Below, one piece after another: positions 9,834 through 54,465 of a DNA stretch of 64,000 bases. Source of the DNA: Terriglobales bacterium. GTDB lineage: Bacteria > Acidobacteriota > Terriglobia > Terriglobales > Acidobacteriaceae. Both the position numbers and the translations under genes were made by a program. The notes under the pieces are model-generated. The model saw nothing but the letters and a program-made list of their open reading frames with translations, was not told where the DNA came from and did not search any database. The number at the start of each line of letters is the position of its first letter. The stretch's first letter is position 1. Location of the stretch: contig JAICWP010000007.1 in NCBI GenBank assembly GCA_025934735.1, positions 62,001-126,000 on the forward strand, in the 5' to 3' direction.

Positions 9834-11510
9834 CTAGCGAAGCGCTGGTGACGGCAGGGGTTCAGGCTCGGCGTTGCCGTCGGCGCGCGGGTCAGAGGCG
9901 CCGTACTTCATCCCCGTTTTGCTGTTGTAGAGCACGGCCTGGCCGCGTCCCATGTTGGAAGAGTAGTCCCCGAGCACGCGCAGGTCGTGTCCCTTCTCCC
10001 GCAATTGCTGCAGCACCTCCGGCTTCATGCGCGATTCTATGGGCACAGTGCAGTCAACCTGGCTGCCGTGCACGGTAAACCGTGGCGCCGACACTGCGGC
10101 CTGGATGTTCATGCCGTAATCCACAACATTCGACACGAACTGAGCATGGGCCACCGGCTGATTGGAGCCGCCCATAATGCCAAAACCAATGTGTACGTCG
10201 TCGCGCTGCATAAAAGCGGGAATAATAGTGTGGAAGGGCCGCTTGCGGGGAGCGAGAGCATCCGGATGTTGAGGATCGAGACGGAAGAGGCCGCCGCGGT
10301 CCTGCAGAACAAAACCCATACCCTCCACCGCTAGGCCGGAACCGAACAGATCGTAGTTGCTCTGAATGAGCGAAACGATGTTGCCATCCTTGTCCACGGT
10401 GGAAAGGTACGTGGTATCGCTGGCGGGAGCGCCCGTCTTGACATCACAGTTCGCCTTGTCAGGATTGATCAGGCGTGCCCGCTGGGCGCCATACTCCCTG
10501 GAAATCAGGCCCTGCACCGGAATTTTGACGAAGCGCGGGTCTCCGTTGTAGCGGTAGAGGTCGGAGTAGGCAAGCTTCATGGCTTCAATCTTCTTGTGCA
10601 GTTCGACTGCGCCTTGCGGACCCCCGGGATCAGGCTGGAAATTGGACATGATGTTCAGCATTTCCAGAGCGGCCATGCCCTGGCCATTGGGCGGCAACTC
10701 GTACACGCGCCAGCCACGATAATCAATGGAGATTGGGTCCACCCACTCGGCGGCGAACTGAGCCAGATCGTCAGCCTGCAGGGTGCCGCCTGCGTCGACG
10801 GAAGTCTTGAGAATGGCTTTCGCGATGTCGCCGCGGTAAAACGCCGAGGCGCCTTGGTCGGCGATAAGTCGGAGGGCCTTGGCTACATCAGGATTCGAGA
10901 ACATCTGCCCAACTTCGGGAATCTTGCCATTGGGCAGAAAGACGCGGCGGGCTTCCTCGTTCTGCAGCGTGGGCTGGCCGACAGTCCAATACCCGTGGAC
11001 CAGTTCAGCCACGGGGTAACCATGCTCCGCGTAGTAAATCGCGGGGCCGAACAGGTCCTTCCAGGGAAGACGGCCGAAGCGCTTGTGAGCTTCGCTCCAA
11101 CCTTCGACAGCGCCAGGCACGGTTACGCTGTTAATGCCGTGCTGCGGCATCGAGGTGATGCCGTGTTGCTTCAGATAATCGATGGAGAGGCCGCGCGGCG
11201 CCCAGCCGCTGGAATTCAGGCCGTAGAGCTTGCCGGTCTTGGCGTCCCAGTAAATGAGGAACAGGTCGCCACCCATACCGTTCATCATCGGTTCGGTAAC
11301 ACCGAGCACCGCGTTGGCAGCGATGGCGGCGTCCACTGCCGAACCACCACGGGCCAAAATTTGGGCGCCTGCCTGCGAAGCCAGATACTGGCTGGTGGCC
11401 ACGATGCCGCGGTCGGTGATGACCATGGAGCGGCCGTAGGAACGGTCCTGGGCAAGCCCTTCGAATGCCATAGCCAGTAAGAACACACACAGAAGAATGC
11501 AACGCAACAT
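9834..11510 (-). CDS. Gamma-glutamyltransferase family protein, exported
   Basis: A 558-residue N-terminal-nucleophile hydrolase that cleaves gamma-glutamyl bonds (glutathione and related amides) after autocatalytic splitting into two subunits. A signal peptide (MLRCILLCVFLLAMAFEGLAQ) sends it to the periplasm. Large-subunit motifs 'GGSAVDAAIAANAVLGVTEP' and 'NGMGGDLFLIYW' are clear. The processing site is at 'SDTTYLSTVDKDGNIVSL', where the first Thr of TTY becomes the nucleophile; the more usual His of TTH is Tyr here. 'GMGFVLQDRGG' and 'GIMGGSNQPVAHAQ' follow. A TTG four codons upstream (11522) would extend it, but the ATG at 11510 gives the cleaner signal peptide. Confidence 0.88.
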   Translation of the reverse strand: MLRCILLCVFLLAMAFEGLAQDRSYGRSMVITDRGIVATSQYLASQAGAQILARGGSAVDAAIAANAVLGVTEPMMNGMGGDLFLIYWDAKTGKLYGLNSSGWAPRGLSIDYLKQHGITSMPQHGINSVTVPGAVEGWSEAHKRFGRLPWKDLFGPAIYYAEHGYPVAELVHGYWTVGQPTLQNEEARRVFLPNGKIPEVGQMFSNPDVAKALRLIADQGASAFYRGDIAKAILKTSVDAGGTLQADDLAQFAAEWVDPISIDYRGWRVYELPPNGQGMAALEMLNIMSNFQPDPGGPQGAVELHKKIEAMKLAYSDLYRYNGDPRFVKIPVQGLISREYGAQRARLINPDKANCDVKTGAPASDTTYLSTVDKDGNIVSLIQSNYDLFGSGLAVEGMGFVLQDRGGLFRLDPQHPDALAPRKRPFHTIIPAFMQRDDVHIGFGIMGGSNQPVAHAQFVSNVVDYGMNIQAAVSAPRFTVHGSQVDCTVPIESRMKPEVLQQLREKGHDLRVLGDYSSNMGRGQAVLYNSKTGMKYGASDPRADGNAEPEPLPSPALR

Positions 11511-11652
11511 TGTGCCTCGCAAACGGCGAAATATGAAAGCTTGCGAATGTACACCGGGGAAGGCAGTGGGGACAACCGGGAAGGCTCACCACAAGGACAA
11601 AAAAACGAGCGCGAGCCAAGTCAACGACGAAGCGTGGTAGCATTTCGCGGTC

Positions 11653-13104
11653 ATGAGAAAGATTCTTCTCGCACTGTTAGCGACGGTTGCGCTGTACAGT
11701 GCGGCGACTGCACGCCCACCGGCGGGCACTCCTGATTTCAGGCTGGTTCAACTGGGCGAGGGAGTGTGGGCGGCCATCGGCAGCGACACCGGAAAGGCGG
11801 GCGCCAATGCCGGGTTCGTGGTGGGCGAGGACGGAGTCGCCGTTATTGACACCTTCGAAGATCCGGGCGTGGCCAAGGAACTGCTGGCCGAAATCCGCAA
11901 GCGCACGCCGCTGCCGATTCGGTTCGTCATCAACACGCACTATCACCTCGACCATGTTAACGGTAACGACGTGTTTGCCGCCGCAGGGGCAACCATCCTG
12001 GCCCAGCGCAACGTGCGCGACTGGATGCGCACCGAAAACCTGAAGTGGTGGGGAGACAAGATCAAGCCCGAAATGAAGGCGCGGGTGGAGTCGCTTAAGC
12101 TGCCGGACCTGGTTTACGACCGCGGAGTGGACCTTTACCTGGGGTCAAGGAAGCTCGAGGTGCATTCGTATGCGGGCCATACCGGCGGCGACTCCATTGT
12201 TTATGTACACGATGCGGGCGTGGTGTTCTGCGGTGACCTGTTTTGGAACCACAACATCCCCAACCTGACCGATGCCACCACCGGCGCGTGGACCAAGACT
12301 CTGGATACACTGGTGGGATCCGGCGCCGGCAAATTCGTACCTGGGCATGGAGAGCCGGGAACGTCTTTGGACGTAAAGGCATTTCAGCAATACCTGGGGG
12401 ATTTGCGCGCGGCGGTTGGACAAGCGCAGGCCGCTGGCAAGAATGGCGACGCTCTGGTACAGGCGGTCTTGCCGGAGTTGCAGGCGAAATACGGGGGCTG
12501 GGCGTTGTTCCAGGAATTTGGCAAATCGAATATTCAGCAAACGTCAGAGGAACTGGCGGGCAGAAAGCGTGTGCCCAAACCGGCTGCGAGCACGGCATCC
12601 AGTGAGCCGCAACTTCCTTACTTGCCCCTGCGGGTGAAGATCGGGCAGAAAGCGCCGGACTTCAGCTTGCCCGGTGCAGACGGCAAGATCGTGAGACTTT
12701 CGTCGCTCGCTGGCCGCAAGGTTCTGCTCGATTTTTACGAGGGATTCTGGTGACCTTACTGCATGATGGAACTCGGCGAGTTCACAAAACATTACAAAGA
12801 CTTCCAGACCGCCGGCGTAGAAGTTCTGGCGATCAGCACCGATGGGATGGACGATGCGCGCTGGACCAAGGAACAGGTGGGAACGCCGTTCCCCGTGCTT
12901 TCTGACGCCAAGCGCAGTGTCATGCAGCAGTACGGAACGCGCTCGCTTTCAACTTATCCCGCGCCCGATGGCGGAGCTTACAACCATGCGACTTTGATCC
13001 TGGTGGACAAGAGCGGCATTATCCGCTGGATCTATCGGAATGCGGATTACCGCATCCGTGCCAGTGTGGCGGACGACCTGGCGCACATCCGAGAACTGCA
13101 CTAG
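11653..13104 (+). CDS. Probable selenoprotein: exported metallo-beta-lactamase-fold hydrolase fused to a UxxC redoxin (in-frame TGA at 12751-12753)
   Basis: Read through its TGA, this is a 483-residue protein. A signal peptide (1-20) is followed by an MBL-fold hydrolase with the metal motif 'THYHLDH' (His96, His98, Asp100, His101), 'SYAGHTGGDS', 'VVFCGDLFW' and 'VPGHGEPG'. From about residue 325 an AhpC/TSA-type redoxin begins ('IGQKAPDFSLPGADGK', 'LLDFYEGFW'). Codon 367 is TGA, followed by Pro-Tyr-Cys-Met-Met-Glu-Leu and the rest of a normal redoxin ('VLAISTDG', 'FPVLSDAK', 'HATLILVDKSGIIRWIYRN'). Related proteins have WCPYC here, so TGA stands exactly at the catalytic Cys. Frame is unbroken on both sides, no ribosome binding site precedes the ATG at 12763, and a SECIS-like hairpin follows. 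Selenocysteine insertion is inferred; the alternative is a nonsense mutation splitting the gene at 11653-12753 and 12763-13104. sel genes are not in this window. Confidence 0.8.
12751..12794 (+). promoter_or_regulatory. Candidate bacterial SECIS element with its UGA codon
   Basis: UGA at 12751-12753. A perfect six-base stem GAACTC/GAGTTC (12769-12774 with 12778-12783) closes a GGC triloop at 12775-12777, 21 bases after the UGA. A second stem TGATG/CATTA (12764-12768 with 12790-12794) extends it below a six-base bulge on the 3' side. Bacterial SECIS elements lie just after the UGA inside the coding region, have a short apical loop with G in its first two positions, and place that loop roughly 16-37 bases from the UGA; all three hold here. 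The fold is drawn by eye, not computed. Confidence 0.7.
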
Positions 13105-13122: not shown

Positions 13123-13566
13123 ATGATGACCCGACGTGAAGTAGGCAAGGCACTGAGCCTGGCGGCACTTTCGGCGGCTGGGCTGACCGAAGTTCTGCGG
13201 GCAGACACAGCGTCTACAGACCCCAAGGCAGCCGCGAATGCTATCGGCGTGAAACGGCTATTCGAACAAACAGTGCCCGACATTGGAGGCAAAGAGGTCC
13301 GCATGGTGATGCTCACCATCGAGCCGGGCGGCACCTCACACCCGCATCGTCATACCGGACCGGTGTTCGCTTACGTGCTCGAGGGCGCCATACAGAACCA
13401 GGTGGACCCCGAACCCCTCAAGACATACCACGCGGGGGAGATCTTCTACGAGCCAACCATGCACGTGCACCGCGCGTTGATTAACTTAAGCAAGGCGCAG
13501 CCCGCTAAAGTGCTGGTGTTTGAGATCGGGGAGAAAGGGAAGGAATTCACCGTGGCGGCGACATAG
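13123..13566 (+). CDS. Exported cupin-domain protein
   Basis: A 147-residue single-cupin protein. The N terminus 'MMTRREVGKALSLAALSAAGL' has a twin Arg and a hydrophobic run, a probable export signal. The cupin core shows motif 1 'PGGTSHPHRHTGPVFAYVLEG' split around its two His ligands (roughly residues 71-90) and motif 2 'YHAGEIFYEPTMHVHRALIN' with the C-terminal His. A CAGGAGAA ribosome binding site precedes the ATG pair at 13123. It lies 18 bases after the MBL-redoxin gene and is probably in the same transcript. Cupins of this size bind metals or small ligands; substrate unknown. Confidence 0.82.
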   Translation: MMTRREVGKALSLAALSAAGLTEVLRADTASTDPKAAANAIGVKRLFEQTVPDIGGKEVRMVMLTIEPGGTSHPHRHTGPVFAYVLEGAIQNQVDPEPLKTYHAGEIFYEPTMHVHRALINLSKAQPAKVLVFEIGEKGKEFTVAAT

Positions 13567-16711: not shown

Positions 16712-18676
16712 ATGGCTAAGGACAAAGACTCGACCGCGTACGACCGCTATCTGGGAATGGACCGGCCCATCACGCGGCGCGACTTTCTCAACGGCATGGC
16801 TATTGCCATCGGGGCGAGCTTGCTGCCGAGGAACGCACTGAGTGAAGCGACCATGGCCGAAGCCCAAGATCGGCCGGGTTACTATCCGCCTACCCTCACG
16901 GGAATGCGCGGCAGCCAACCCGGATCATTCGAGATTGCCCACAGTTTGCGCGACGGCACCTTCTGGCAGAGTGCGAGCAAAGCCAACGATACGGGCGAAT
17001 CCTACGACCTAGCGGTAGTGGGCGGAGGCATTAGCGGTCTGGCGGCGGCGCACTTTTTTCGCGAACAAGCCGGGCAGAGCGCTCGCATTCTCATTCTTGA
17101 GAACCACGACGACTTTGGCGGGCACGCCCGGCGCAACGAGTTTCACCTCGGCGGCAGGCTGCAACTGATGAACGGCGGAACCATGCTGATTGACAGCCCC
17201 ACTCCTTACAGCACGCAGGCCGCGGGGCTGCTGAGAAAGCTCGGCATTGATCCGCCGAAGCTGGCGGCACAGTGCAACGATTCCAAGCTGTACAGCTCGC
17301 TGGGACTGCAGCCGGCAGTCTTCTTTGATAAGCAGACTTTTGGCGAAGACCGGCTGGTCGTGGGCGAACCGGGAGCCGACTGGCAGGGCGGGAGCACAAG
17401 CAGGGTGACGTGGAAGGATTTTCTGGCGCGCACGCCGATGTCCCCGCAAGTGCAGCGCGATATCGAGCGCATTCAGCAAGCGACGGTTGATTACATGCCG
17501 GGGCTGACGTCGGCGGAGAAGAAAGACCGGCTCTCCCGGATCAGCTACAAAGATTTTCTGCTGAACGTAGCGAAGGCCGCTGCGGGCGTGATTCTTTTCT
17601 ATCAGACGCGCACCAACGGCGAGTGGGGCGTGGGCATCGATGCCGAGCCAGCGCTGGACTGCTGGGCGCTGGGGCTGCCAGGCTTCCAGGGCATGAAGCT
17701 GGAGCCAGGGGCAGCGCCGCGCATGAGCTACACCGCGGCCGGATACGCAAATGGCGGGTCGTACCGCTTTCATTTTCCTGATGGCAACGCGACCATTGCG
17801 CGCCTGCTGGTGCGCGACCTTATCCCTGCAGCGGTGCCGGGGAACAGCGCGGAAGATGTGGTTACCGCCAAAATTGACTACACCCGGCTTGACCAGCCAA
17901 GCTCGCCGGTGCGGCTGAGGCTGAACAGCACGGTGGTGCGGGCGCGGAACTTGGGTGACGGGGCAGCCGCCCGCGAGGCGGAAATCACCTACGCTACCGG
18001 CCAACAGGTGTTCACGGTTCGCGCGAAAAACTGCGTGATGGCCTGCTGGAACATGATCATTCCTTACCTGGTGCCGGAACTCCCCGAGAAACAGAAGCAG
18101 GCGCTGCACTACCTGGTGAAGGTGCCACTGGTGTACACCAGTGTGGGCATTCGCAATTGGACTTCGTTCCAGAAGCTGGGCATTCGCGGCGTGCGCGCGC
18201 CCGGAGCGTACTGGATGGACATCAACCTTAATTGGCCAGTGAATATCGGCGGGTACAAGAGTGCTAAGAGCCCAGCAGAGCCGATGCTGCTGTTTCTGAG
18301 TCGCACACCCTGCAAGCCGGGCCTGCCGCCGCGCCAGCAGCAGATAGCTGGCCGGTATGAACTGCTGAGCACAACCTTTGAGACATTTGAACGCGCCATT
18401 CGCGACCAACTGGCGCGCACGCTGCGCGGCGGCGGATTCGATCCGGCTCGCGACATCCAGGCCATCACTGTCAATCGCTGGCCGCACGGGTATGGTTATG
18501 AGTACAACCCGCTGTTCGACCCGGAGTGGCCTGAAGCAGAGCGGCCGAATGTGATTGGCCGACAGCGGTTTGGGCGAATTGCGATCGCCAACACCGATTC
18601 AGCAGCCACCGCATACACCGACCAGGCGATTGACCAGGCGTGGCGGGCCGTAGGGGAGTTACTACAGGGGCGTTAG
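16712..18676 (+). CDS. Tat-exported FAD-dependent dehydrogenase, spermidine dehydrogenase-like, paralog 1
   Basis: A 654-residue flavoprotein. The Tat signal 'PITRRDFLNGMAIAIGASLL' (19-38) exports it folded. After a conserved linker 'YYPPTLTGMRGSQPGSFE' comes the FAD Rossmann motif 'VVGGGISGLAAAHFF', the second Gly-rich block 'NHDDFGGHARRNEF', and a C-terminal FAD contact region 'NRWPHGYGYEYNPL' to 'RFGRIAIANTDSAATAY'. The overall pattern matches proteins annotated as spermidine dehydrogenase (SpdH), an FAD enzyme oxidising polyamines; the assignment is from memory of the family and substrate is uncertain. It is first of three tandem paralogs, 43 bases before the second, and divergent from iorAB. 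Confidence 0.8.
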   Translation: MAKDKDSTAYDRYLGMDRPITRRDFLNGMAIAIGASLLPRNALSEATMAEAQDRPGYYPPTLTGMRGSQPGSFEIAHSLRDGTFWQSASKANDTGESYDLAVVGGGISGLAAAHFFREQAGQSARILILENHDDFGGHARRNEFHLGGRLQLMNGGTMLIDSPTPYSTQAAGLLRKLGIDPPKLAAQCNDSKLYSSLGLQPAVFFDKQTFGEDRLVVGEPGADWQGGSTSRVTWKDFLARTPMSPQVQRDIERIQQATVDYMPGLTSAEKKDRLSRISYKDFLLNVAKAAAGVILFYQTRTNGEWGVGIDAEPALDCWALGLPGFQGMKLEPGAAPRMSYTAAGYANGGSYRFHFPDGNATIARLLVRDLIPAAVPGNSAEDVVTAKIDYTRLDQPSSPVRLRLNSTVVRARNLGDGAAAREAEITYATGQQVFTVRAKNCVMACWNMIIPYLVPELPEKQKQALHYLVKVPLVYTSVGIRNWTSFQKLGIRGVRAPGAYWMDINLNWPVNIGGYKSAKSPAEPMLLFLSRTPCKPGLPPRQQQIAGRYELLSTTFETFERAIRDQLARTLRGGGFDPARDIQAITVNRWPHGYGYEYNPLFDPEWPEAERPNVIGRQRFGRIAIANTDSAATAYTDQAIDQAWRAVGELLQGR

Positions 18677-18719: not shown

Positions 18720-20729
18720 ATGGGACAAGACGATCACGATTCCAAGCGGGACAAAGAACTGGGGATGGAGCGGCGGATTACGCGCCGCGATTTCTTAAAC
18801 GGAGTGGCGGTCACGGTAGGCGCCAGCCTGGTGCCCATGGGAGTGCTGGCGCAGGATTCGGGGCCAGATGCTTCAGGGCAGGACCCGCTGCTGGCTGCGG
18901 GGATCACCCAACAGGATCCACGCTATTACCCGCCGGCGCTAACCGGCATGCGCGGCAGCCATCCTGGGTCCTTCGAGGCGGCCCACCTGGTGCGTGATGG
19001 CAACTGGAAGGCAAGCGCAAGCAGCACCGGCGAGAGCTATGACCTCATCGTGGTGGGAGGTGGCATCAGCGGGCTGGCGGCGGCCTATTTTTATCGCAAG
19101 GCGGCTGGGAATAAGGCGCGCATTCTTATCCTGGATAATCACGACGACTTTGGCGGTCACGCCAAGCGCAATGAGTTCCGCCCGGGAGGACGCCTGCTGC
19201 TGGGCAACGGCGGCACCTTCGCAATCGAGTCGCCGTTTCCCTATAGCAAGGTTGCGCGCGGGCTGATGGAGGACCTGGGTATTAACCCGCCGGCGCTGGC
19301 GGCCAAGTACGCGCTGCCTAATCTCTATGAACGCCTGCAGGCGGCCGTCTTCTTCGATAAGGAGACTTTCGGCGCTGACCGCCTGGTAGCTGGCGAACCC
19401 AGTCGCGCCTGGATGGAGGCAACACCGAAATCGCTGCCCTGGAAGGAATACCTGGCCAAGTGTCCGCTCTCGGCGGAAGTGCGGCACGATATCCTGCGCA
19501 TCGAAACGCAAGAAACGGATTACATGACGGGCGTACCAGAAGCGGAAAAACGCGATCGCCTCTCCCGCATGAGCTACAAAGACTTTGTACTCAAGGTGGT
19601 GAAGGCTGGCCCGGGAGTGATTCCTTTCTACCAGAAGCGCACCCACGACCTGTATGGCGTAGGCATTGACGCGGTGCCGGCGCTGGACTGCTGGGCCCTG
19701 TATTTTCCAGGTTTCCAGGGCTTGGGGCTGCGCCGCGTGCCCGAGGGCAGGCTGAGCTTCACCGCGCGGGGCGCGGCCACGCCCGACCAGAAGCCCTACC
19801 ACTTCCATTATCCCGATGGCAATGCCTCCATTGCGCGCCTGCTGGTGCGCTCGCTAGTGCCGGGGTCGGTGCCGGGAAGCAATGCCGAAGACGTGGTCAT
19901 GACCAAGGTGGACTACAGCCGCCTGGACCAGGAAAGCTCGCCGGTGCGCCTGCGACTGAACAGCACGGCGGTGCAGGTGCGGCATGTGGGCGAACCGACC
20001 TCGGCAAAGGAGGCGGAAGTCGTCTACGCGCTCCAGGGCAAAGCCTATAAAGTGCGCGGAGCAGGCGTGGTGCTGGCCTGCTGGAACATGATGATTCCTT
20101 ACCTGTGCGCGGAAATCCCGGAGCAGCAGAAAAAAGCGCTGCATTATGGCAGCAAGGTGCCGCTGGTGTACACCACGGTGGCGGTGCGGAATTGGACCGC
20201 CTTCCAGAACCTCGGAGTGCAGCGTGCGTTCTGCCCGGGAATGTACCACTCCTCGCTAAGCCTCGATTGGCCCACCAGCATAGGCGGATACAAGTTCCCC
20301 ACATCGCCTGAGGAACCCATGCTGGTGCGCATGACGCGAACTCCCTGCTCGCCGGGAATGTCGGCGCGCGCGCAGCAAATGGCGGGGCGCTACGACCTGC
20401 TTTCCACTCCGTTCTCCACCTTCGAGCGCAATATTCGCGACCAGTTAGGGCGGGTACTCGGTGGTGGGGGATTCGACCCGGCACGCGACATCACGGCCAT
20501 AACCGTGAACCGCTGGCCGCACGGCTACGCCTACGAATACAACCCGCTGTGGGACCCGGACTGGCCTCCGGGGCAGTCGCCTTGCGAGGTCGGGCGGCAG
20601 AGGTTTGGACGAATTACAATCGCGAATTCTGATGCCGCTGCAGCAGCGTACACCGATAAAGCGATGGATGAGGGATACCGCGCCGTGACGGAATTGCTGG
20701 GCCAGGCGAGCGCTGCAGCAGGAGTCTAA
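18720..20729 (+). CDS. Tat-exported FAD-dependent dehydrogenase, spermidine dehydrogenase-like, paralog 2
   Basis: A 669-residue paralog of the preceding gene with the same order of parts: Tat signal 'RITRRDFLNGVAVTVGASLV', linker 'YYPPALTGMRGSHPGSFE', FAD motif 'VVGGGISGLAAAYFY', 'NHDDFGGHAKRNEF', 'NRWPHGYAYEYNPL' and 'RFGRITIANSDAAAAAY'. It is slightly longer between the Tat signal and the linker than its neighbours. It lies 25 bases before paralog 3, so the three are very likely one transcript. Its ribosome binding site (AAAGGG) is weak. The tandem arrangement points to local duplication followed by divergence, perhaps for different amines or for complex formation. Confidence 0.8.
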   Translation: MGQDDHDSKRDKELGMERRITRRDFLNGVAVTVGASLVPMGVLAQDSGPDASGQDPLLAAGITQQDPRYYPPALTGMRGSHPGSFEAAHLVRDGNWKASASSTGESYDLIVVGGGISGLAAAYFYRKAAGNKARILILDNHDDFGGHAKRNEFRPGGRLLLGNGGTFAIESPFPYSKVARGLMEDLGINPPALAAKYALPNLYERLQAAVFFDKETFGADRLVAGEPSRAWMEATPKSLPWKEYLAKCPLSAEVRHDILRIETQETDYMTGVPEAEKRDRLSRMSYKDFVLKVVKAGPGVIPFYQKRTHDLYGVGIDAVPALDCWALYFPGFQGLGLRRVPEGRLSFTARGAATPDQKPYHFHYPDGNASIARLLVRSLVPGSVPGSNAEDVVMTKVDYSRLDQESSPVRLRLNSTAVQVRHVGEPTSAKEAEVVYALQGKAYKVRGAGVVLACWNMMIPYLCAEIPEQQKKALHYGSKVPLVYTTVAVRNWTAFQNLGVQRAFCPGMYHSSLSLDWPTSIGGYKFPTSPEEPMLVRMTRTPCSPGMSARAQQMAGRYDLLSTPFSTFERNIRDQLGRVLGGGGFDPARDITAITVNRWPHGYAYEYNPLWDPDWPPGQSPCEVGRQRFGRITIANSDAAAAAYTDKAMDEGYRAVTELLGQASAAAGV

Positions 20730-52200: not shown

Positions 52201-52910
52201 CCGATCAGGACACCGTCGATCCCTGGAACCCTCGCGGGCTCGATTATCGGGCGGCTGACTGGGACCGCACCCATGTGCTGGTCTTCAATTACGTTTACAA
52301 CCTGCCCAATGTCAGCCAGCACTTCGGCGCGCCCAAGTGGCTGTCTTACATCACGGATAACTTTCAGTTGTCAGGCATTTCCACTTTCGAAACTGGCCAA
52401 CCCCTGGACACCAGCCTCTGGATTCCGGCCAATTTGTACACCGGCTCGAACCAGTGGGGCTTGATTCCGCCAGCTTATTTTGCCGCCACCAGTGGCGTGA
52501 ACCACAGCGTGGGCACGTCTAAGTTTGATCCGGCGGCCTTCATCTCCACTATTCCTGTGGGCTCTGCCGTCCTTGGCCGGAGCACCACCCTGCGCGGCGG
52601 CGGCCTGCAGAACTGGGATATGTCCCTGTTCAAGAACATCCCCTTGGGCTCCAATGAGCAGCGCTACCTGCAGCTGCGTTTGGAAGCCTTCAACATATTC
52701 AACCATCCCAATTTTCAAGGGGTGAACCTGGGCAACTGGCAGGTGAACTCGCCTACGGGCAACACGCCGGCGCAATTGGTTCTCAACACCCGGCCGGTGG
52801 ACCAGCCCATCAATCGCGACTATGGCACCTACTTCGGCGAGTACAACAGCCAGTACTCCGGACCTGGCGGCCCGCGCGTGCTCCAGTTGGCGGTGAAACT
52901 GTACTTCTAA
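49236..52910 (+). CDS. TonB-dependent receptor with N-terminal carboxypeptidase-regulatory domain (Oar-like)
   Basis: A 1,224-residue outer-membrane transporter. The signal peptide ('TYFSVLAITLFCCAAVVAQ') is followed by a CarboxypepD_reg sandwich ('GAIFGQVKDSSGAYISKAQV', 'GGFVAPNLPPGTYNITIDS'), a plug domain ('LALNGRNVLDMVKLVPGVIS', 'FNINGTRANQHEYTIDGAS', 'AEFGKAGGGQIIVSTKSG') and a large barrel ending 'VLQLAVKLYF'. This is the usual acidobacterial form. The ATG at 49236 was chosen for its CAGGAGA ribosome binding site and signal peptide; the frame is open from 49167. It probably imports oligosaccharides with help from the divergent GH30 enzyme. Confidence 0.93.
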   Translation: MAPLCLLSGRSRTYFSVLAITLFCCAAVVAQVTSGAIFGQVKDSSGAYISKAQVSITSPAIGVTRRVTTSEDGGFVAPNLPPGTYNITIDSPGFKQLEKKNVILSATDRLNAGEFVLEVGATAESVTVTADAGQLQLQTNSGERSDLVTNKQLNDLALNGRNVLDMVKLVPGVISSLDGSASGLCCVDQFNINGTRANQHEYTIDGASNVDTGNNGALHVTINPDAISEVKILTSNYQAEFGKAGGGQIIVSTKSGTNQFHGEARFFHRNEGLNANNWFANNTDPKTPIALYRYNYFGYQFGGPVLIPGTGFNKNKNKLFFFWSQEYYRQLIPSGDVLQVRMPTALERQGDFSKTVDGNGNPLTIYNPATGLPFAGNKIDPNSLNPAQQAVFSQVSNVLSLYSLPNISGNPAYNYSTQLSYSNPRREDILRVDYQINDRNRFYGHWINNADTSRSPMETWNLNCMGQLQYPGGCLSKQPSWNVSANLVSTITPTLLNEASIGPSVVRATTTGNNGNVSRGVNGISLPMLYPVTPSTPVPDFSFQGNNNINYPWSYLGANPWFQANTTINFNDNLTKVFNKHTLKAGIFVQRARKDQIAWGNYNGQATFDNCATSSDPAGCSDPLTGNAYASALLGNFRSFDQTSARPVGFFRYTNLEFYGQDTWKATQRLTLDYGLRFAWYQPQYDAKNQLAIFDPASYDPSKAVRLYLPAVSGGAYDPANPGNILDGSLVGTIVPNSGDLTNGMHFASSGYYRGGWRSRGIMPEPRLGFAYELTSDHKTVLRGGAGMMHDRIQGNLIFNPVFNNPANVVTPTVLNGNLVNLPNLASQGSVPTFGGILGADKNGQVPTVYNFSLGVQREIGEGTTIDVAYVGSLSRHLVTQRDINAIPYGTDFTRAAQDPSKYSGGVVPAVEANLPAAYAQAGFNYSGDNAYDTEFLVPYKGYSNISYYKFDGTSNYNSLQVSVQRRFTKALTFGAAYTWSKAMTTASADQDTVDPWNPRGLDYRAADWDRTHVLVFNYVYNLPNVSQHFGAPKWLSYITDNFQLSGISTFETGQPLDTSLWIPANLYTGSNQWGLIPPAYFAATSGVNHSVGTSKFDPAAFISTIPVGSAVLGRSTTLRGGGLQNWDMSLFKNIPLGSNEQRYLQLRLEAFNIFNHPNFQGVNLGNWQVNSPTGNTPAQLVLNTRPVDQPINRDYGTYFGEYNSQYSGPGGPRVLQLAVKLYF

Positions 52911-52923
52911 ATTGTGCGCATCG

Positions 52924-52959
52924 AGAAGCCCGCGGCTTATGGCCCGTGGGCTTCTTCTT
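52924..52959. terminator. Intrinsic terminator between the TonB receptor and the M48 protease gene
   Basis: Stem AGAAGCCCGC/GTGGGCTTCT (52924-52933 with 52946-52955; one G-T pair), loop about 12 bases, then TCTTG on the plus strand. It lies 14 bases after the receptor stop and 13 before the end of the convergent gene, so it could serve both. Confidence 0.75.
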
Positions 52960-52971
52960 GTAGGACGAGAC

Positions 52972-54465
52972 CTACTGCAGCTGCAGGCTCTGCAGCATGC
53001 GGTCATAAGTGGATTTCAGCCGGCTAAAGTCTTTTTGCGGCGCAACAAAAATCAGATATACCAGCTGATTGTTAGGGCCGGCCACCGTGACCAGCCGATC
53101 CTGCTCGCGCAGCGGCTGCCCGTTCTTCTGAATGGGCGAATTCCCCATCAGCATCTGCGAGCGTCCATCCATGCCATTGATCTGCATATTGCTGGTTGAT
53201 CCTGAAGCCTGTAGGCCGGGGTTGTTCTGTTCCATGTTTTGAACCAGCGCCTGCGTGGCCTGGTCCAGCGAAGCGCCGCTGGGCATTTGCGCCGCTCCCA
53301 TTACCACGCCATACGCAACCGCTCCCTCGGAGACCGCCACTTGGGGGGCAATGGTCAGCCCATTCTGGCTGCTCGCTGCCTGCCAGTTGCTGGGATAAGA
53401 AATGCTGAGGCCGTTCTGCTGATACTGGGTGTAACTGCCGCTGGGCTTCACCTGGCTATAGGAAACTTTTTGTAAGGTGGCATTGGCGGCTGCCGCCCCA
53501 CTCTGTCCTGAAGGCGAGGTCGAGGACGCTGGCAGGTTCTTGGGAACGGCGCCCGTCTGCTGGTTTTGCCGCGCCCACGTTCCGTTCTTGGCTCCCTGAC
53601 CAATCTGCTGCGCCGTGTAGGCTTTCACCTTCGAAGCAGCCTGCTTGGCGGCGACAAAAGCCGGGCTGTTGTCCTGGTATTGCTTGGGCGGCCAGTCCTT
53701 GATCTCGTTTTCCACGGCCTGTACGCGATTCCCCGGGTTGGGGTGGTCGCTGAGGAATTGCGGACCACCGGCGCCACCTTCTTTCTCCAGCTTCTGGAAG
53801 AATTCGGCCATAGCTTTGGCGTTGTAGCCTGCCTTCCAGAGGATGATGGCGCCCACCGCATCGGCCTGCGCTTCATCGCCGCGCGAGTACTTCATGCTCC
53901 ACATGCCGCCGGCAATCTGGCCGCCCATGGCGGCAATGGCGCCGCCAACACCTCCGACCATGGACCCAAGAATCTGGCCCAGTCCAGCCAGAATGCTCGG
54001 ACCCATATTCTGCTTCATCTGCTTGGCCGAGTGCTGCATATACACGTGCGACATCTCGTGGGCCATTACCCCGGCCAGTTCGGCCTCATTGTCGGCGGCC
54101 GTAATCGTGCCCACGTTGATGAAGATGGGCCCGCCCGGCAATGCAAAGGCGTTGATCTCCTTCTGCTCGATCACATGAAACTGGTAGGGCCACGTGTACT
54201 GCTGCGGGATCACCTTTTCCAGCTTTTTCCCCAGCTGCTGCACGTATTGGGTCACCGGACTGGAGTCGGGCAGCACCGGCATTTGCTGGTACACCTGACC
54301 CATGGCCTTCAGCCCAAGCTGCTCCTGCTGCTGTTTGCTGAGGGAAACGTTGCCGGGGTTAGGTAGTTCCGGGGTGTGTACAGCGCCCCACATCCAACCC
54401 GGTTCGGCGATTAGAAGCGCGAGAAGAAGCGCCAACAAGCGTGGCGCCAGCTTACGTTCTTTCAT
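52972..54465 (-). CDS. Exported M48 family metalloprotease (BepA-like)
   Basis: A 497-residue periplasmic zinc protease. A signal peptide precedes the peptidase domain with 'GVMAHEMSHVYMQHS' (HExxH, residues 136-140) and the third ligand Glu198 in 'SRGDEAQADAVG'. 'NAFALPGGPIFINVGTI' is the usual M48 strand. The C-terminal 230 residues, after a Gln/Ser/Pro-rich linker, form a separate domain ('YQQNGLSISYPSNWQAAS', 'VTVAGPNNQLVYLIFVAP') instead of the TPR domain of E. coli BepA. Members of this family control outer-membrane protein assembly, in line with the TamA/TamB pair upstream. Confidence 0.9.
   Translation of the reverse strand: MKERKLAPRLLALLLALLIAEPGWMWGAVHTPELPNPGNVSLSKQQQEQLGLKAMGQVYQQMPVLPDSSPVTQYVQQLGKKLEKVIPQQYTWPYQFHVIEQKEINAFALPGGPIFINVGTITAADNEAELAGVMAHEMSHVYMQHSAKQMKQNMGPSILAGLGQILGSMVGGVGGAIAAMGGQIAGGMWSMKYSRGDEAQADAVGAIILWKAGYNAKAMAEFFQKLEKEGGAGGPQFLSDHPNPGNRVQAVENEIKDWPPKQYQDNSPAFVAAKQAASKVKAYTAQQIGQGAKNGTWARQNQQTGAVPKNLPASSTSPSGQSGAAAANATLQKVSYSQVKPSGSYTQYQQNGLSISYPSNWQAASSQNGLTIAPQVAVSEGAVAYGVVMGAAQMPSGASLDQATQALVQNMEQNNPGLQASGSTSNMQINGMDGRSQMLMGNSPIQKNGQPLREQDRLVTVAGPNNQLVYLIFVAPQKDFSRLKSTYDRMLQSLQLQ

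Follow-up and report, generated by a model that had tools for sequence, protein, structure and literature searches.

Two families of selenoproteins with a UxxC active site, the peroxiredoxin-like thiol:disulfide oxidoreductases (PF00578) and the redoxins (PF08534), are listed in Table 1 of PMC13188914. The selenocysteine peroxiredoxins with a PxxxTxxU motif (PF00578) and PrxU (NF040737) share the superfamily and place their selenocysteine elsewhere in the fold, at the peroxidatic position. Fusions are also on record, since the Global Ocean Sampling survey reports marine selenocysteine peroxiredoxins and peroxiredoxin-like proteins joined to other domains (PMC2398784). That survey's account of these fusions names a PP2C-type phosphatase and a Secretin_N-like domain as partners, leaves others unnamed, and has no metallo-hydrolase among the named ones (PMC2398784).

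The gene described here lies in a stretch of 64,000 nucleotides from a Terriglobales bacterium (assembly GCA_025934735.1, contig JAICWP010000007.1, positions 62,001 to 126,000), referred to below as the window. It has in common with the listed UxxC selenoproteins both domain families, the UxxC motif, one selenocysteine and a hairpin at the position of a bacterial SECIS, and differs from them in that a metallo-hydrolase is present in the same chain, a partner that no entry of Table 1 names (PMC13188914). With the Global Ocean Sampling proteins it shares the joining of a selenocysteine redoxin to another domain (PMC2398784). Since UxxC selenocysteine redoxins are listed (PMC13188914) and fusions of selenocysteine peroxiredoxin-like proteins have been reported (PMC2398784), and since neither source names a metallo-hydrolase partner in those parts, the gene is a new architecture of an established family, its selenocysteine redoxin part being a known kind of protein. 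Among the papers listed by literature searches none describes a metallo-hydrolase/redoxin selenoprotein, which does not imply that none is in print.

The gene very probably specifies a single exported two-domain selenoprotein, a UxxC redoxin fused to a metallo-hydrolase, in which the UGA at 12751 would be decoded by SelB and Sec-tRNA(UCA) with the aid of a hairpin. The features of the locus are as follows.

11653-13104, plus strand: metallo-hydrolase/redoxin fusion gene, 483 residues with Sec367, stop TAG (frame and Pfam)
11653-11715, plus strand: probable export signal at the N terminus, residues 1-21 (judged by eye from the translation)
11800-12348, plus strand: metallo-beta-lactamase-superfamily domain, residues 50-232 (PF00753, E 3.7e-24)
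12574-12630, plus strand: fusion joint, approximately residues 308-326, where stand-alone hydrolase homologues end (homologue comparison)
12640-13029, plus strand: AhpC/TSA (redoxin) domain, residues 330-459 (PF00578, E 4.7e-31; PF08534, E 1.3e-21)
12751-12753, plus strand: TGA, probably read as selenocysteine, residue 367 and position 1 of U-P-Y-C (frame, homologue column, selenocysteine machinery)
12760-12762, plus strand: Cys370, second member of the UxxC pair (translation)
12767-12786, plus strand: hairpin resembling a bacterial SECIS, with an 8-bp stem, one bulged A and an apical GGC loop at 12775-12777 (folding, homologues)
13123-13566, plus strand: cupin gene directly downstream of the fusion gene (PF07883; 81 of 149 residues identical to those of the L104 cupin)
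9834-11522, minus strand: gamma-glutamyltransferase gene, divergent neighbour (PF01019; 406 of 561 residues identical to those of the L042 gene)

The frame from 11653 to 13104 is open apart from the single TGA, which is flanked by FYEGFW and PYCMMEL and falls on the first cysteine of a WCxxC motif. An initial annotation of this DNA had given the frame, its coordinates and length, the place and flanks of the TGA and Cys370, all of which proved correct on re-reading. Behind the TGA 116 codons remain open. Three of the 32 other TGA-ended frames of at least 200 codons in the window (antisense frames included, 33 such frames in all) stay open longer, so the length of the continuation is by itself unremarkable. 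To that extent the frame would suit a reading in which the UGA is an ordinary stop, the sole product is a 366-residue hydrolase ending in a useless piece of redoxin, and the sequence beyond it is a remnant that is either decaying or translated on its own. Such a reading is very improbable, in the first place because conservation does not drop behind the TGA: identity to the nearest redoxin relative, L065, is 24/37 just before the TGA and 75/114 after it. The next six relatives fetched have 18-26 of 37 identical positions before the TGA and 50-57 of 115-120 after it, and the Pfam AhpC-TSA match (residues 330-459) spans residue 367. It is this homology, and not the length of the frame, that lifts the continuation above chance, and the conserved redoxin half that had been noted downstream of the TGA is borne out by the same identity to L065 and the same match. 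GC3 is 0.71 on either side of the TGA.

Separate translation of the downstream part has a further difficulty, since a start at ATG 12763 would lose the first part of the redoxin domain together with the UxxC motif and has no ribosome-binding site at the usual distance. The initial annotation had pointed to the lack of such a site. As an observation this is fair, the nearest candidate being a GAGGG about 19 nt upstream, farther than the usual spacing; as evidence it is weak, because ATG 11653 of the fusion gene is likewise without a clear site. Elsewhere in the window, on the minus strand, a 214-codon frame (52374-53015) is followed by a TGA and then by 223 further open codons, and is possibly merely an antisense frame.

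The initial annotation recognized the redoxin and overlooked a metallo-beta-lactamase-fold domain in the N-terminal two thirds of the protein, for which the PF00753 match reaches 86.2 bits against a gathering score of 22.7. The translation of this domain contains HxHxDH at residues 96-101, H176, D195 and H232, which, going by the roles of these residues in the superfamily, would be the metal ligands. The best-scoring NCBIfam model is that of the quinoprotein relay system zinc metallohydrolase 2 (TIGR04559, SoxH-related), with 157.9 bits over residues 43-301, and since this is under the cut-off of 280 bits the window hydrolase is not a member of that family. In one metallo-hydrolase relative (L102, G053:C1) the HxHxDH stretch reads TSAMPDL, and its metal site therefore seems to have been lost.

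The redoxin domain scores 107.7 bits with PF00578 (cut-off 26). Its active site is UxxC (U-P-Y-C), with no TxxU or TxxC at the peroxidatic site. The peroxidatic cysteine or selenocysteine of the TxxC and TxxU peroxiredoxins aligns with Cys370, and Sec367 stands three residues earlier; the PrxU model NF040737 gives 51 bits against a cut-off of 270. Because the peroxidatic position falls on Cys370, the protein is better described as a thiol:disulfide oxidoreductase-like redoxin than as a thiol peroxidase, so that of the original label "thiol peroxidase/redoxin" the second half stands and the first gives way to a thioredoxin-type UxxC. Disulfide chemistry appears more likely than classical peroxidase chemistry, and a UxxC peroxidase is possible as well. 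Based on the families matched, the N-terminal signal would export the protein, and Sec367 and Cys370 would form the UxxC redox pair of a thioredoxin-fold redoxin, in which the selenolate of Sec367 may attack a disulfide or a peroxide and Cys370 may resolve the intermediate.

Decoding of UGA as selenocysteine depends on dedicated genes, and the initial annotation had proposed a search for selA, selB, selD and tRNA-Sec in the source genome. All four are present in this assembly (4.94 Mb in 50 contigs, 99.83% complete, 0.6% contamination). The selB match reaches 351.5 bits (cut-off 242.25), selA 554.4 bits (cut-off 267.9) and selD 365.9 bits (cut-off 125), and selD (L010) itself has an in-frame TGA, at VKAAGUASKL. 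A single tRNA-Sec was found with 70.6 bits (gathering score 47), and ARAGORN also calls tRNA-SeC(tca), with the anticodon UCA. The tRNA-Sec score alone is not specific, as the model exceeded its gathering score in five of 14 control genomes while selA was found in one of the 14. The complete gene set is a second point against an ordinary stop.

The window gene is one of several redoxin genes with a TGA in the source genome. Eight of the 21 PF00578 matches, the window gene included, contain one TGA, and these lie either in the Sec367 column (four genes) or at the peroxidatic position three residues on (four genes). The first set comprises three genes with UxxC (L047, L056 and the window gene, L049) and one with UPPF (L062), which from that motif we presume to be deiodinase-like; the second comprises the TxxU relatives L043, L045, L048 and L052. 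Since all eight TGAs in the AhpC/TSA genes of this genome fall on redox-active positions, interruption by chance is improbable. Together with selD, the eight genes make at least nine selenoprotein candidates in the genome.

The same column is conserved outside this genome. In 28 of 29 homologous redoxin loci that were read (L065-L093) a TGA stands in the Sec367 column and is followed by xxC, and the remaining locus is a cysteine-type peroxiredoxin with TxxC. Further loci have WUPxC (L110, L112 and L113), WCPYC (L105-L107) or WCTYC (L108), and the last two motifs identify cysteine as the alternative residue in this column. An alignment of homologues across the TGA, which the initial annotation had suggested, thus gives either TGA (28/29 loci) or cysteine (L105-L108) at this place. 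A conserved stop followed by a separate downstream gene, the arrangement that it had named as speaking against selenocysteine, was not seen, the homologues read being one continuous redoxin domain. The inference drawn there, that UGA encodes Sec367 of a 483-residue selenoprotein, is supported by this column and by the presence of selB and tRNA-Sec. A TGA that is the rule in this column among the homologues read is difficult to ascribe to an ordinary stop or to a sequencing error.

Selenocysteine-type redoxins look common in the class Terriglobia, judging from gene content. When 399 genomes of the class were searched with the redoxin half, at least 150 matches resulted, and a TGA is present in 112 of the 150 listed; its place was read singly in a minority of the 112, and for most of them its position at the active site is assumed. 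Among the matches listed, selA was present in 89 of 94 genomes with a TGA-bearing match and in 18 of 34 genomes without one (Fisher p 2e-7), absence in the other five of the 94 being scored at E 1e-60. Four of these five exceptions are genomes 55-77% complete, and the fifth (G406) is 91% complete. Over the class as a whole selA occurs in 290 of 399 genomes. As to the phylum, the part of a 2006 survey of few genomes that deals with it assigns four selenoproteins in three families to the Acidobacteria (PMC1794560), and a test genome from the phylum is given three selenoprotein genes in the corresponding part of a 2025 study (PMC12013277).

Encoding of selenocysteine by TAG was considered as well and rejected. 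Eight places flagged for TAG were read, and seven of them (L094, L095 and L097-L101) are an upstream stop or a gene end away from the active site. At the eighth (L096, G089:C25) TAG TGA stands at the active site and serine replaces the second cysteine, and this redoxin relative is probably a decaying copy.

The stem-loop just downstream of UGA 12751 would aid its decoding by SelB with Sec-tRNA(UCA). A published model of the bacterial SECIS specifies, in its summary of parameters, a loop of 3-9 nt, a stem of 4-16 bp, a G in the first two loop positions, a spacing of 16-37 nt and a minimum free energy of -7.5 or lower (PMC13188914). The window hairpin agrees with this model in its 3-nt loop, loop G, 8-bp stem and spacing of 21 nt from the TGA to the loop, and with -6.5 kcal/mol it misses the energy limit of -7.5. 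That limit separates the classes poorly, as it is passed by 7/9 cysteine sites beside 36/38 selenocysteine sites. The seven nearest homologues fetched (a set without the second redoxin match of G089, C24, which is equally near as those used) have a hairpin at an equal distance and with an equal 3-nt loop size, at -8.5 to -18.9 kcal/mol. Six core pairs are kept in 47 of the 48 cells formed by the window and these homologues, with one compensatory two-sided change, A-U to G-C, in L071. Two lower pairs, which are kept in seven and five of the seven homologues, are broken in the window hairpin.

Since the stem also codes for the well-kept residues ELGEF, synonymous-codon shuffles were chosen as the control. 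All 37 selenocysteine sites (L057 was dropped as a repeat of L052) are more stable than the mean shuffle, with a combined z of -7.7 that is inflated by the relatedness of the sites to one another, compared with +1.3 for nine cysteine-site controls. The window hairpin alone gives a z of -0.76, and 25% of its shuffles are equally good. The 61 nt around the TGA have no extra fold stability (z +0.96), and the 40 nt starting at the TGA give a fold z of -1.1. A search of Rfam over 12600-13000 found nothing near a gathering score, its single chance match having 15.5 bits against 35. The case for a hairpin thus rests on the homologues rather than on the window, and the weakness of the window hairpin is a point in favour of an ordinary stop. 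The complete selenocysteine genes, the TGAs at redox positions in the same genome, the conserved column and the recurring hairpin together make it very probable that this UGA is read as selenocysteine.

The two halves of the gene have their nearest relatives in different places. The stand-alone hydrolase L114 is 309 residues long, ends in TGA and is identical to the window protein at 231/308 positions; L042, with 322 residues and 186/289 identical positions, has the same gamma-glutamyltransferase neighbour, and the sequence of L117 at the joint is the same as that of L042. Of 28 hydrolase loci (L015-L021, L042 and L114-L133; the distant loci L022-L033 were excluded), 22 were entered into a script that locates the end of the gene (L021, L121, L124 and L129-L131 were left out), and 15 were readable and seven were not. 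The readable ones end in TGA (9), TAG (4) or TAA (2), 80-89 residues past a PGHG motif, and L121, read separately, ends in TGA too. That TGA is so common a terminator in the group agrees with the ordinary-stop reading. A redoxin was sought in all 28 hydrolase loci and their flanks and was found in none. On the redoxin side the nearest relative (L065/L104, in G127) stands alone and has a cupin gene behind it, as in the window. No comparable cupin was present in the short flanks of the other 28 redoxin loci, where the best scores were 29-64 against 343 for G127 and 26-39 for the shuffled background, so the pairing of redoxin and cupin outside the window is known from one relative. The fusion may have arisen when a metallo-hydrolase gene that stood alone acquired, in frame at its 3' end, a selenocysteine redoxin gene that had likewise stood alone.

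Two adjacent paralogous flavoprotein-like genes with twin-arginine-like N termini occupy 16712-18676 and 18720-20729 of the window. The L042 stretch holds one relative of this pair, with 358/654 and 364/661 aligned positions identical.

In searches with the whole protein, the fusion is seen in the source genome only, in a single assembly. It was absent from the others in sets of 61 relatives, 398 genomes of the family and 396 of the phylum, which overlap and each count the source genome. Named genome contigs contained one relative, of the hydrolase only, and viral contigs none. All of these searches covered samples or were pattern-based scans, and the fusion may occur elsewhere. Restriction to one genome is what might be expected if an assembly chimera or a sequencing error had produced the fusion or the TGA, an explanation that is extremely improbable given that the frame is continuous and GC3 stays at 0.71-0.72 from the hydrolase through the two redoxin parts and in the cupin gene. 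Each side of the joint is also in its proper surroundings, with a cupin gene after the redoxin (compare G127) and the transferase gene beside the hydrolase (compare L042), and the source genome combines high completeness with low contamination.

Alternatively, decoding could be conditional, such that the ribosome stops at the UGA when selenium is scarce, releasing a functional hydrolase that carries a redoxin stub, and produces the two-domain enzyme when selenium is present. The part before the UGA does hold a whole hydrolase, since the domain (residues 50-232) ends 134 residues ahead of the UGA and two stand-alone relatives have total lengths of 322 and 309 residues, and the window hairpin is weaker than in the seven nearest relatives fetched. 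The truncated tail may be degraded, however, and the fusion is present in one genome only, and conditional decoding is on balance unlikely. A more elaborate version is quite unlikely: with a complete metallo-hydrolase domain ahead of the UGA, termination there could be productive, and the gene would then be a selenium-gated source of two products in which the supply of selenium sets the ratio of hydrolase to hydrolase-redoxin, both active sites act on the same periplasmic substrate and the weakened hairpin tunes the ratio.

If the gene is, as favoured here, translated through the UGA into one two-domain selenoprotein, an annotation that halts at the TGA would give a 366-residue hydrolase and miss the redox enzyme. 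In the fusion gene, unlike a gene for a lone redoxin, one domain stays whole even when translation stops at the selenocysteine codon. A metallo-hydrolase thereby joins the list of partners fused to selenocysteine redoxins, and the frequency of selenocysteine-type redoxins across the class may matter more than the fusion itself.
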